Source of the DNA: Nitrospira japonica
GTDB taxonomy: Bacteria; Nitrospirota; Nitrospiria; Nitrospirales; Nitrospiraceae
Length of the DNA: 64,000 nucleotides
Direction of reading: 5' to 3'
NCBI RefSeq assembly: GCF_900169565.1
Contig: NZ_LT828648.1
Coordinates: 1,924,876-1,988,875, forward strand
Shown: positions 42,593-61,804 of the stretch, piece after piece
Layout of the letters: every line of letters begins with the position of its first letter
How positions within the stretch are numbered: the first letter of the stretch is position 1
Translations under genes and position numbers: made by a program
The notes under the pieces: generated by a model
Databases searched by the model: none
Seen by the model: only the letters and a program-made list of their open reading frames with translations
Told to the model about the DNA's origin: nothing

Positions 42593-42611
42593 AGAGTCAG
42601 CGTCTTCTGCT

Positions 42612-42714
42612 GTTCCGCTTCCCTACGCTGGTATTACCCAGGTCAGGTTGTGAGGGTCGTCCGTCCAAGAACTCCGGCGGACTCTCAGCCTTTTGGCACC
42701 CCTAGCTCGTGATC
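42612..42714 (-). ncRNA. TPP riboswitch (THI element)
   Basis: The minus strand carries the conserved THI-box core in order: AGGGGTGCC, GGCTGAGAG, ACCCTC-AACCTGA, GGGTAATACCAGCG and TAGGGAAG. These form the two ligand-binding arms of the thiamin-pyrophosphate aptamer. An intrinsic terminator follows at 42561-42592 and then thiC, so control is by transcription termination. Confidence 0.95.
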
Positions 42715-57903: not shown

Positions 57904-60528
57904 ATGCGAGGCGTGTGGTCAGTGTTCGGAATGCTGATCGGGGCGCATGTCCGCGAGCGGCCGCTCCGAAACGCACTCAGCGTTGTCGGGGTCGCACTCG
58001 GCGTACTGGCGTCCGTGTCGATCGGCACGGCCAACGTGCAAGTGCTTCACTCCTTTGATCGTGCGGTGAGATCCGTCTCCGGAACTGCCACCCTCGAAAT
58101 CATCGGGCACGACCTGGGGGTGGATGAGGCGGTGATCAGATCGGTGCGGAACCTCCCGGGCGTTGAGAACGCCGCTCCGCTTCTGGAGCAGGGCGTCGTG
58201 GTGCAAACCGAAGGACATCGGGGCGAGGTTCTGCAGATCTTCGGCATGGACCTCCTGGCCGAACTCGGCTCACCGAACGGGCGATTTCTGGTCACCCGTG
58301 AGGATCGTGAGCGGACCCTTGAGGATGTCGTTTCGGCGGATGCGATCTATCTGGGCCGATCGTTGGCCGATTCGTGGAACCTCCGGGTCGGCAGTCTGGT
58401 GGATGTCCAAGGCGGCGGACGGAACCTGCGCCTGAGAGTCGCCGGGGTCATCCACGGAACGGAGAATTCCGGATCCCTTTGGGACCGAGCGGCCGCCATG
58501 GACATCGCGGCGGCGCAGGTGAACTTTTCCGCGATCGGACGGTTGGATCGAATCGATATCGTCACGGATGCGGGGTGGAACGTGGATGACGTGGCGGCTT
58601 CGGTCCGCGACGTCCTGCCGCCGCATCTGACCGTGCAACGTCCGGCGCAACGGTCGAAACAGGTCGAGAATATGGTCCGCTCCTTCCAGCTTAATTTGAC
58701 GGTGTTGAGCTGGGTCGGACTGCTCGTCGGAACCTTTCTCATCTACAACACGATGGCCTTTGCCGTGACCCAGCGGCGGCGTGAGATCGGCATCTATCGC
58801 GCCATAGGTATGGCGGAGCGCCGGATCGCGTTGTTGTTTCTCGTTGAAGGAGGGCTGCTGGGTTTGATCGGGGGCATGCTGGGTGGGGCCGCCGGGGTAT
58901 GGGTGTCGCGGGCGCTCATGGGGTTGGTCAGCCGCACGATCTCGGACTTGTATGTTCCGCTCATGACCGGAGATCCGATGTCGTGGATTGATACGCAAAC
59001 CATCATGGCGATGGTGAAGGGCACGGCGTTTGGAACAATAGTGGCGATGGTGGGCGCGTTGGCTCCGAGCCTGGAGGCTTCGCGTACGGTGGCGGTCCGC
59101 GCCTTGGCGCCGGGGGATTACGAAGAAACTCAGCAAGTCCGCGGCCCCCGCTTTTTGGCCGTCAGCCTGCTGTTGTTTGTCTGTGCCGGCGTGATGTCCA
59201 TGCCGGGACCGATCAACGGCCTTCCGTTGTTCGGATATCTTGCAACCCTCTGTCTCCTCGGATCGCTGGTCGCGCTGTCATCCGTTTGTATCCAGACGTT
59301 GGGGCGCCGTGAGGTGTCCCGCAACCATGGGTCCCTCGCACTCGAGGGCGGGCTGCGTCGTATGGCCGCCGAACATGCCGCGAGACATCCGGGTCGCAAT
59401 GCGGTGACGGTCTCGGCTTTGATGGTCGGACTCGCCATCATGATCGGGGTCGTGGTCATGGTTCGAAGCTTCCGCGAGACGGTGGAAACGTGGGTCAATG
59501 AAACCGTCATGGCTGACTTGATTGTCGCCCCGTTCGGTTGGCTGCACCGGCAGCAGGCTGGTCACGCGGCCCGTGCGCTCCCCGATTCATTGGCGTTGGT
59601 GCTGTCCTCCTTCGATGGTGTGGCTGCCGTGGATGCCTATCGGAATGTGCAAGTCGATGTCGAGGATCGAACCGCCATGCTGGTGTCGCGGGATATGCGG
59701 TTGCACGCGGAGCGGAGCCGCTATCTTCTCCTCCGAGGCGACTCGACGGCCGCGTTGAATCGGGCTGCAGACTCCGGAGGGGTGTTGATCTCGGAAGTGC
59801 TGGCCAGCCGGCTGGGAGTGCGGGAAGGGGGACGCGTGACGATTCGTAGTCCTCAAGGCCCACAAACCGTGCCGGTCGAAGGAATTTTTTACGACTATGC
59901 GACGGATGGCGGCAAGATGGTGATGGATCGCGCCCGATATCAGAGATTATGGAACGATCACTCGGTGACGGTATTCGCCGTCTATCTTGCCGCGGGAGCC
60001 GATAGCGAGACCGTCCGGGCCGCGATGGTTCGGGCCTTTGCCGAACGACAGGACGGGGTGTTGCCGCCGATGGTGATCAAGAACAAGGAACTGCGGAAGG
60101 AAATCCTCGACATTTTTGACCGGACCTTCATCTTGACCTACGTGCTGGAGCTGATCGCCGTATTGGTGGCGGTGCTCGGCATCGTCAACACGCTGGTGAC
60201 CGCCGTGCTGGAGCGGCGTCGAGAATTGGCCACCCTTCAGGCGATCGGGGCAAGCCGGAAGCAAGTTGAACGTCTGGTTCTATGGGAGGCGGTCTATCTC
60301 GGTTCGATTGGCGCGGTGTTGGGTATGATCGGAGGGCTTGGTCTCGCCTGGATTCTCATTACCGTCGTCAACAAACAGTCCTTCGGATGGACGATTCGCA
60401 TGACCGTGCCGATGGACGTGCTTCTGCAGGCCGTGACGATAGGCGTGGTGGCGGCATGGATTGCCGGTTACCTTCCGGCCCGATGGGCCGCGAGACAATC
60501 GGCGGTGGAGGGATTGAGACAGGAATAG
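57904..60528 (+). CDS. Large two-module FtsX-type ABC permease
   Basis: An 874-residue permease with two MacB_PCD-FtsX modules. Helices: one near residue 20-45 (SVVGVALGVLASVSI), three at about 255-400 (LSWVGLLVGTFLIYNTMAFA, LLGLIGGMLGGAAGVWV), two at about 420-470, one at 500 (MVGLAIMIGVVVMVRS), and three at 735-870 (LELIAVLVAVLGIVNTLVTA, MIGGLGLAWILI). Ends PARWAARQSAVEGLRQE. The plan is that of YtrF/MacB-like exporters of the lipoprotein or lipid type. The ATPase is presumed to be the gene at 55766. Confidence 0.92.
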   Translation: MRGVWSVFGMLIGAHVRERPLRNALSVVGVALGVLASVSIGTANVQVLHSFDRAVRSVSGTATLEIIGHDLGVDEAVIRSVRNLPGVENAAPLLEQGVVVQTEGHRGEVLQIFGMDLLAELGSPNGRFLVTREDRERTLEDVVSADAIYLGRSLADSWNLRVGSLVDVQGGGRNLRLRVAGVIHGTENSGSLWDRAAAMDIAAAQVNFSAIGRLDRIDIVTDAGWNVDDVAASVRDVLPPHLTVQRPAQRSKQVENMVRSFQLNLTVLSWVGLLVGTFLIYNTMAFAVTQRRREIGIYRAIGMAERRIALLFLVEGGLLGLIGGMLGGAAGVWVSRALMGLVSRTISDLYVPLMTGDPMSWIDTQTIMAMVKGTAFGTIVAMVGALAPSLEASRTVAVRALAPGDYEETQQVRGPRFLAVSLLLFVCAGVMSMPGPINGLPLFGYLATLCLLGSLVALSSVCIQTLGRREVSRNHGSLALEGGLRRMAAEHAARHPGRNAVTVSALMVGLAIMIGVVVMVRSFRETVETWVNETVMADLIVAPFGWLHRQQAGHAARALPDSLALVLSSFDGVAAVDAYRNVQVDVEDRTAMLVSRDMRLHAERSRYLLLRGDSTAALNRAADSGGVLISEVLASRLGVREGGRVTIRSPQGPQTVPVEGIFYDYATDGGKMVMDRARYQRLWNDHSVTVFAVYLAAGADSETVRAAMVRAFAERQDGVLPPMVIKNKELRKEILDIFDRTFILTYVLELIAVLVAVLGIVNTLVTAVLERRRELATLQAIGASRKQVERLVLWEAVYLGSIGAVLGMIGGLGLAWILITVVNKQSFGWTIRMTVPMDVLLQAVTIGVVAAWIAGYLPARWAARQSAVEGLRQE

Positions 60529-60533
60529 CGAGC

Positions 60534-60713
60534 GTATGGTAAGCAGCCTGCTACGGCGATGGGTAATACCGCATGGCCTGTCGGTGCTTGGCTCAGCAAC
60601 TTGCTCCGTCCACGACTGTGTCGGAACGGAGCTTCAGACAAGCTTCGCCAGCGCGAAGGCGCACGCACCGACAGTCATGCGACCCATCGCAAGTCGCAGG
60701 GCGCACACCATAC
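60534..60713. repeat. Branched 180-bp inverted-repeat element
   Basis: Convergent intergenic space between the permease gene and bioB. Outer arms: GTATGGT (60534-60540) pairs with ACCATAC (60707-60713), then imperfect pairing, then 60556-60587 pairs with 60665-60690 (GCGATGGGT and GTCGGTGC exact). Inside are two hairpins, GCTCCGT/ACGGAGC (60603-60632) and CTTCGC/GCGAAG (60643-60658). The fold resembles a branched RNA or a MITE/REP-type element. No gene with family similarity is encoded. Confidence 0.6.
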
Positions 60714-60808
60714 TCTTCACCGAGAGAGGTTAGAAGGGTAGCAATGCTCATTCGACACGCACAGTGGACGACGACCGGTTCTGCGTCTGCTACTCACCTG
60801 GGTCTGTA

Positions 60809-61804
60809 TCAGCCCGCTACTGGTTGCTGGTAGTCCACTTCGATCTTGAATCCGAGATCTTCGATCATGCCCCAGACTTCCGGCGCAGGAGCGCCAGGAG
60901 TCGTGAGGTAGCCGTTCACAAAGACGGAATCGGCCGGATAGAGGGCGAGCGGCTGCAGGCTGCGGAGGTTGTGTTCGCGGCCGCCGGCGATGCGGATTTC
61001 GGTGCGCGGATGGAGAAAACGGAAGAGGCACAGGACTTTCAGGCAGCGTTGCGGCGTGAGATTATCGCAATGCTCCAAGGGAGTGCCTGCAACCGGGTGC
61101 AAGGTATTGAGTGGAATCGAATCGGGCTTGACCTCGCGCAGGGCCATGGCAAGGTCGACGAGATCCTCGTCCTTCTCGCCCATGCCGACGATCCCGCCGG
61201 AGCAAATTTCCAGTCCTGCCGCCCGGGCGTTCCTGATCGTCGCGAGACGGTCTTGGAACGTATGGGTCGTGCAGATCGAGGCATGAAACGCTTCGCTCGT
61301 GTTCAAGTTGTGGTTCACGCGATCCACACCCGCCGCCTTGAGGCGCTTCGCCTGCTGTTCGCTCATGAGCCCCAGGGAACAGCAGATCTGGATCGGGGTT
61401 TCCTGTTTGATGGCGCGTACGGCGCCGGCGATCTCGTCGATCTCGCGGTCGAGCGGGCTTCGGCCGCTGATGACGATGCAGTATCGCTGGGCTTTGGAAG
61501 CTGCGGCCTGTCGCGCGCCTTCGATCATGCGGTTCTGCGGGAGCAGATTGTACCGTTCGATCGGAGCGGTTGAGATGGAGGACTGGGAACAATAATGGCA
61601 GTCTTCCTGGCAGGCCCCGCTCTTGGCGTTCTGAAGCATCTGCAGGCGAACCGTGCGCCCAAAGTACCGGGCTCGCACCTGAAAGGCGGCATGAAGCAGT
61701 ACAAGGAGTTCGTCGTCCGGCGCATTGAGGACGGAGAGGGCTTCCTGTCTCGTCAGGACTTGATCATCAAGCGATTTGGCGGCCAGGGCCGAGTAATCCG
61801 TCAT
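60809..61804 (-). CDS. bioB: Biotin synthase
   Basis: Radical-SAM enzyme inserting sulfur into dethiobiotin. The SAM cluster cysteines are C65, C69 and C72 (SGACQEDCHYCSQ). The second cluster ligands include the CC of IQICCSLG and Cys in LEICSGGIVGMGE; the N-terminal and C-terminal (NGYLTTPG) parts fit too. 331 residues is full length. It lies 62 bases downstream of the LapB-like gene on the same strand; no other bio gene is in the window. Confidence 0.96.
   Translation of the reverse strand: MTDYSALAAKSLDDQVLTRQEALSVLNAPDDELLVLLHAAFQVRARYFGRTVRLQMLQNAKSGACQEDCHYCSQSSISTAPIERYNLLPQNRMIEGARQAAASKAQRYCIVISGRSPLDREIDEIAGAVRAIKQETPIQICCSLGLMSEQQAKRLKAAGVDRVNHNLNTSEAFHASICTTHTFQDRLATIRNARAAGLEICSGGIVGMGEKDEDLVDLAMALREVKPDSIPLNTLHPVAGTPLEHCDNLTPQRCLKVLCLFRFLHPRTEIRIAGGREHNLRSLQPLALYPADSVFVNGYLTTPGAPAPEVWGMIEDLGFKIEVDYQQPVAG

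Follow-up and report, generated by a model that had tools for sequence, protein, structure and literature searches.

The window, a 64,000-nucleotide stretch of the Nitrospira japonica genome, holds a 180-base palindrome between an ABC permease gene and the biotin synthase gene bioB. The region is convergent, as the initial annotation had stated, because the element lies between the permease gene on the plus strand and bioB on the minus strand. The features of the locus are as follows.

57904..60528, plus strand: upstream gene, FtsX/MacB-type ABC permease (Pfam); its stop codon almost touches the element
60534..60713, minus strand (putative folded strand): whole palindromic element of family A, subfamily with GGATGGTGGGC-type ends (folds, covariance model and polarity of other copies)
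60534..60587, plus strand: left arm of the long stem, beginning 5 nt past the permease stop codon at 60526-60528 (MFE structure)
60589..60650, plus strand: tip hairpin 1, long and bulged (MFE structure; covariation in alignments A1 and A6)
60598..60640, plus strand: conserved core AACTTGCTCCGTC...AACGGAGCTTCAGACA (pattern search, core alignment)
60651..60662, plus strand: tip hairpin 2, short (MFE structure)
60665..60713, plus strand: right arm of the long stem (MFE structure)
60746..60766, plus strand: what may be left of the 3' part of a palindromic repeat from a second family (GCTCGNTCGACGCGNGCAGTG type; three mismatches to the pattern, relation judged by eye)
60809..61804, minus strand: downstream convergent gene, biotin synthase bioB (Radical_SAM and BATS)

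Fold of the window element and its orthologous sites

We confirmed that the 180-base palindrome at 60534-60713 is real. The exact blocks described in the initial annotation are present together with their complements, and the MFE fold agrees with its imperfect arms of about 50 nt enclosing two hairpins, 60534-60587 being paired with 60665-60713. The bulged stem of ~50 nt is closed by the two hairpins in a single three-way junction; a four-way junction, the other form proposed, does not appear in the MFE fold. Both strands fold far more stably than shuffled sequences, with −100.5 kcal/mol for the plus strand (shuffles −63.3±4.2, z −8.85) and −105.6 kcal/mol for the minus strand (z −9.26), and 0/200 shuffles were as good in either case. 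These folds contain one G-U pair on the plus and four on the minus strand. To call the structure far beyond a terminator was fair, and no U-run was seen at the element by eye. Palindromes of the element family also give rise to spurious ORFs. Elsewhere in the window, a TPP riboswitch lies at 42603-42713 on the minus strand (63.5 bits).

The gap between the permease and bioB genes is 280 bp in the window versus 4 bp between the two stop codons in genome G003 (locus L161), which represents an empty site. Behind the permease stop codon of G005 (L159) lies a different palindrome, and a 250-nt stretch there folds at −114.3/−123.0 kcal/mol. This palindrome looks like a third kind, with ~200 nt, a branched tip and another core; its bottom strand is again the more stable one. 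In G011 (L171), the same permease locus carries an intact palindrome of the second Nitrospira family (125 nt, −69.9/−77.9 kcal/mol) with complementary arms. The second family has the core TTGCTCGCRGAACGCGC..hairpin..GCTCGTTCGACGCGCGCAGT, occurs in L171, L139, L140, L149, L151, L142 and other loci, and is sometimes found close to copies of family A.

A dispersed family with a conserved tip

The Nitrospira group dominates nitrite oxidation and includes the comammox bacteria. Copy counting by BLASTn, which had been proposed as a check, gave a divided answer: the element is a single copy in its own genome by blastn, yet a covariance model built from 17 copies (alignment A1) found seven copies there at E≤0.0014 and nine matches at E≤1. 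The window copy itself scored 158.6 bits with this model, which was built with that copy included. A cobalamin riboswitch (L068, 2356-2563, plus strand) lies close to one of the copies of this genome.

At E≤0.001, the model matched 90 of the 175 genomes of the GTDB family, in 19 of 22 genera, with 1-14 copies per genome. A phylum-wide search with stricter filters (E≤1e-4) matched 56/395 genomes, and 56/56 lay within the family (f1). Blastn matches were found in six of the seven genomes of the genus, including its own, and in 26 of the 175 family genomes, several of which had a weak match or only the permease end that was also present in the query. We also searched the tip pattern over 84,980 named species and obtained 69 stretches, 67 of them titled Nitrospira, Nitrospiraceae, Nitrospirota or Nitrospirae. 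The remaining two were one from Paenibacillus (L118), without a model match, and one from a Microvirga bin (L141, contig JAJFBI010000380.1). The latter copy looks genuine by eye, the model does not match it at E≤0.01, and the contig may have been misbinned in the public MAG. Judged from these searches, the family has so far been found in Nitrospira-type bacteria. A phage or plasmid origin was rejected: blastn with the element gave no match in plasmids, and the core pattern gave 0 matches in viral contigs. Most elements are 180-220 bp long, and three matches lie within ~15 kb at the end of one contig (L074, G070:C2).

Our literature search, with supplements and subscription journals outside its scope, found no description of such an element. 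A RepRanger table lists N. moscoviensis (PMC12306157), and the accessible part of PMC5767232 mentions palindromic repeats solely as CRISPR.

Copies from different loci share the tip. Their arm sequences are unrelated between loci and complementary inside each copy; only within the subfamily of the window element are the arms alike. One copy (L089) combines two subfamilies, with ~36 nt from the start of one followed by an element of the other. In A1, two-sided changes were found in 25 of 47 pairs, compared with a mean of 10.2 after shuffling and 3-8 in slid versions. Five species were compared at one orthologous site, the secA 3' end: compensation was found in 21 of 81 pairs, against a mean of 10.3 after shuffling and 0-5 in slid versions. 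Further pair types were no more numerous there than in shuffles (169/500). Covariation of the tip hairpin extends over the 66 copies of the core alignment A6 (65 of the 66 listed sites plus the window); one pair, for example, shows 17 two-sided changes and three breaks. The invariant columns of A6 are partly circular because A6 was drawn with a pattern, and the covariation at columns left open by the pattern is not circular. Taken together, these comparisons support the view that the structure is maintained by constraint. Sequence is the usual basis for defining palindromic repeats in bacteria; in this family, only the tip is conserved in sequence and the stem may be almost any self-complementary sequence.

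Placement and occupancy of sites

In 39 of 65 copies, the left end of the element lay −10 to +30 nt from the stop codon of a co-oriented frame, and in five of 65 the right end did; stop codons were those of the open frames of at least 100 codons nearest the end, not of curated gene calls, and L118, L119, L141 and sites close to contig ends were left out. The other 26 copies do not fit this placement. Recurrent host genes are UDG, secA, tenA, purC and glnE. The element also occurs between co-oriented neighbours, as in purC-element-purS and between an ftsK-like gene (by eye) and lolA, and annotators should expect that such palindromes can sit between genes of the same orientation. In a radical-SAM gene cluster (typed in L140; assigned by clustering in L136, L137 and L147), the start of a gene faces the element.

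Two flanking signals were examined with L118, L119, L141, L093 and L149 left out. A small hairpin to the right of the element, for which sites close to contig ends were also dropped, was not significant (mean z −0.27). A purine-rich tract in the same place occurred in 30/60 cases versus 10/60 and 9/60 in windows further right; we rejected this candidate, whose signal loses weight since purines are just as abundant in the left flank (33/60).

Orthologous sites differ in occupancy. We searched 77 genomes of one genus for UDG, found the gene in 69, and examined the 30 best-matching loci. At the UDG 3' end of these 30, five elements were intact, four decayed (L223, L224, L228, L229) and one unreadable, and 20 loci had no recognisable element (by eye). 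A retro-type origin had been considered, given that L072 fragments keep their 3' side and that the repeated gene 3' ends differ in length. It was not supported because in the decayed UDG copies it is the 5' side that has been kept.

Small genes lie between direct copies at several loci. Behind an msrB-like gene (by eye), two direct copies in L153 enclose a typed pair of RelE-type toxin and HTH antitoxin; L106, which matches L153 at 92%, likewise carries the pair between two direct copies, and in L151 there is just one copy and nothing that matches the pair. Behind glnE, direct copies enclose a DUF4160-DUF2442 pair (L072) or Fic (L079), where glnE was typed in L073 and the other two loci were assigned by their similar ends. 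At these loci, glnE 3' ends of ~20, 95 and 135 nt (by eye) are repeated along with the element copies, which could be ordinary tandem duplication. The region behind glnE (L072, L073, L079) looks like a gene-capture hotspot and likely includes a TIR protein too (by eye); the TIR candidate had no Pfam match.

We detected no target-site duplication: the longest direct repeat averaged 3.51, against 3.41±0.12 for controls made by re-pairing (L118, L119, L141, L093, L149 and sites close to contig ends left out). Short duplications could be missed in this test because the element ends were set by alignment. No excised or circular form of the element was seen. Protein clusters of at least three loci from the 69 stretches contained no shared recombinase. 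We noticed no full-length relative in which the same ends enclose a transposase in these stretches of up to 8 kb, where most proteins are untyped.

Strand polarity and competing readings

We compared the two strands in a strand-neutral test, in which the left arm was aligned to the complement of the right arm and both strands were treated alike. G-U mismatches numbered 194 on the strand opposite the upstream gene versus 69 on the same strand (sites 54 versus 6, 9 ties). Many copies are orthologous and not independent, which is handled only in the count of one site per locus; there, with arms only, the numbers were 71 versus 21 (sites 24 versus 3, 9 ties, n=36). Both counts exclude L118 and L119, the latter with unpaired arms. 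The bottom strand was the more stable one by folding energy in 63 of 70 copies, a comparison that kept L118 and L119 and left out sites close to contig ends. The arms of the MFE structures gave a modest wobble excess (186/2653 versus 133/2579 pairs). Wobble cells counted by hand on RNAalifold structures, which lean to the plus strand, showed no polarity. The G-U bias and the folding energies therefore show that it is the bottom strand, opposite the upstream gene, whose ability to fold is preserved; this is the minus strand in the window, where the polarity was taken from other copies.

With moderate confidence, we read the window element as a member of a Nitrospiraceae palindrome family that is non-autonomous and probably mobile and would be recognised as a folded single strand, with the logic of integron attC sites but not as attC. 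The bottom strand, when single, would form a long hairpin with bulges and a three-way junction at its tip. The tip and the shape, not the arm sequence, may then be read by a recombinase or transposase of the host, which would join the element to the 3' ends of genes. Such an enzyme might sometimes also move small cassettes of toxin-antitoxin or Fic genes between direct copies. Mobility is suggested by the dispersed copies, by occupied, decayed and empty orthologous sites, and by the restriction to one clade. Against this reading speak the failure to detect target-site duplications, excised or circular forms or a shared recombinase, and also the secA site, where five species keep the fold with more compensation than a dead insertion would lead one to expect. 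The family gives a handle on how mobility outside integrons and REP systems may make use of single-strand folding.

The strongest competitor, which we consider rather unlikely, is a structured non-coding RNA transcribed from the strand opposite the upstream gene (minus in the window), with its fold under selection and its spread due to old duplications. The excess of compensatory changes over shuffled and slid versions, in A1 and at secA, and the covariation of the tip hairpin would all be expected of such an RNA, and the bottom-strand G-U bias is the trace that it should leave; it would also explain the conservation at secA better than mobile DNA. However, the element is absent or decayed in most relatives examined at two loci, and its arm sequences are not conserved across loci. 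It resembles Rfam structured RNAs in its covariation and branched fold, but Rfam gave no match at gathering in the window element and none at E≤1 in 11 loci, bar an unrelated cobalamin riboswitch. An RNA acting between two converging transcripts, one of the initial suggestions, survives as far as structural constraint is concerned, for which the compensatory changes speak. A fold serving the permease mRNA is unlikely because the foldable strand is the minus strand, opposite the upstream gene, and the convergent setting is not general, as purC/purS illustrates.

A more specific proposal, which we regard as unlikely, is a separate recombination-site system. Here, a Nitrospiraceae recombinase would read the three-way tip of the folded bottom strand, join gene 3' ends at stop codons, and shuffle toxin-antitoxin and defence cassettes. 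If this were true, attC logic would have evolved twice.

We are still more doubtful about a passive 3'-UTR palindrome of the upstream gene, serving as mRNA stabiliser or weak terminator, whose symmetry would be kept by palindrome-correcting template switching. This would account for the sites directly behind stop codons, also between purC and purS, and for the finding that other species carry different palindromes (L159, L171) behind the same permease gene. However, a sense 3'-UTR should show the G-U bias on the other strand, and sense-strand RNA is disfavoured by this polarity. The lack of a visible U-run also speaks against a 3'-UTR function, which moreover leaves the conserved, non-self-complementary tip unexplained.

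Comparison with known systems

The initial annotation suggested a MITE/REPIN-type element, and we compared the family with both groups. The mobile-repeat part of that suggestion is supported by the dispersed copies, the empty and decayed sites and the clade restriction. Like MITEs and ERIC-type repeats, the element is a non-coding imperfect palindrome on the scale of 100-200 bp whose copies are scattered between genes and confined to one clade, and relatives have empty sites. MITE arms are conserved terminal repeats. In contrast, the arms of our element are not conserved between most loci, no target-site duplication was detected, and there is strand polarity and placement at stop codons. We therefore rejected MITE membership on conserved ends and target duplications. 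ERIC/RU-1, for comparison, measures 127 bp and occurs in enterobacteria (PMC2759123).

The REPIN part was not supported. REPs are short, and RAYTs recognise a single strand. The element shares with REP, BIME and REPIN sequences the form of an extragenic palindrome; unlike them, it is ~200 nt long and has 1-14 copies per genome, where REPs usually exceed 100 (PMC2817692). Y1_Tnp genes were not associated with it, being present in 65 of the 90 genomes with the element versus 54 of the 85 without (p 0.26), and 25 of the 90 had no Y1_Tnp match. Its own genome has one Y1_Tnp (C1:3487678), and a copy of the element lies 7.6 kb away; the 3.3 kb around this Y1_Tnp contain a single inverted pair, of 15 nt. 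No linked transposase was found. We rejected a RAYT/REP/REPIN system on the low copy number and on the absence of a Y1 association over 175 genomes.

Integron attC sites are the closest parallel. They share with the element a long bulged palindrome behind a gene, variable sequence with a conserved fold, a folded bottom strand (here G-U 194 versus 69, or 71 versus 21 with one site per locus) and cassettes between direct copies, including toxin-antitoxin genes. Integron integrases above the NCBI cut-off occur in 18 of the 175 family genomes, along with many further integrase-like fragments, and IntegronFinder 2.0 reports two CALIN in Nitrospira inopinata (PMC9024848). Nevertheless, that the element itself belongs to a Nitrospira integron, as an attC site or CALIN remnant, is extremely improbable: the R boxes RYYYAAC (left) and GTTRRRY (right) were found in 0/63 copies (sites left out as in the target-duplication test); the box-bearing attC-like sites close to three of six integrases examined (L188-L193) are 56-78 nt long and of other sequence; 12 stretches around nine integrase genes gave no model match at E≤0.1; and integrases do not track the element (11/90 genomes with it versus 7/85 others, p 0.46), 79 of the 90 having none above the cut-off. 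We thus rejected attC on boxes, size and integrase link. Unlike attC, the element is conserved at its tip and not at its base, is mostly 180-220 nt long with a three-way tip, and often stands alone behind housekeeping genes. The resemblance would best be read as one of logic, a folded bottom strand behind a stop codon, reached with an unrelated site.
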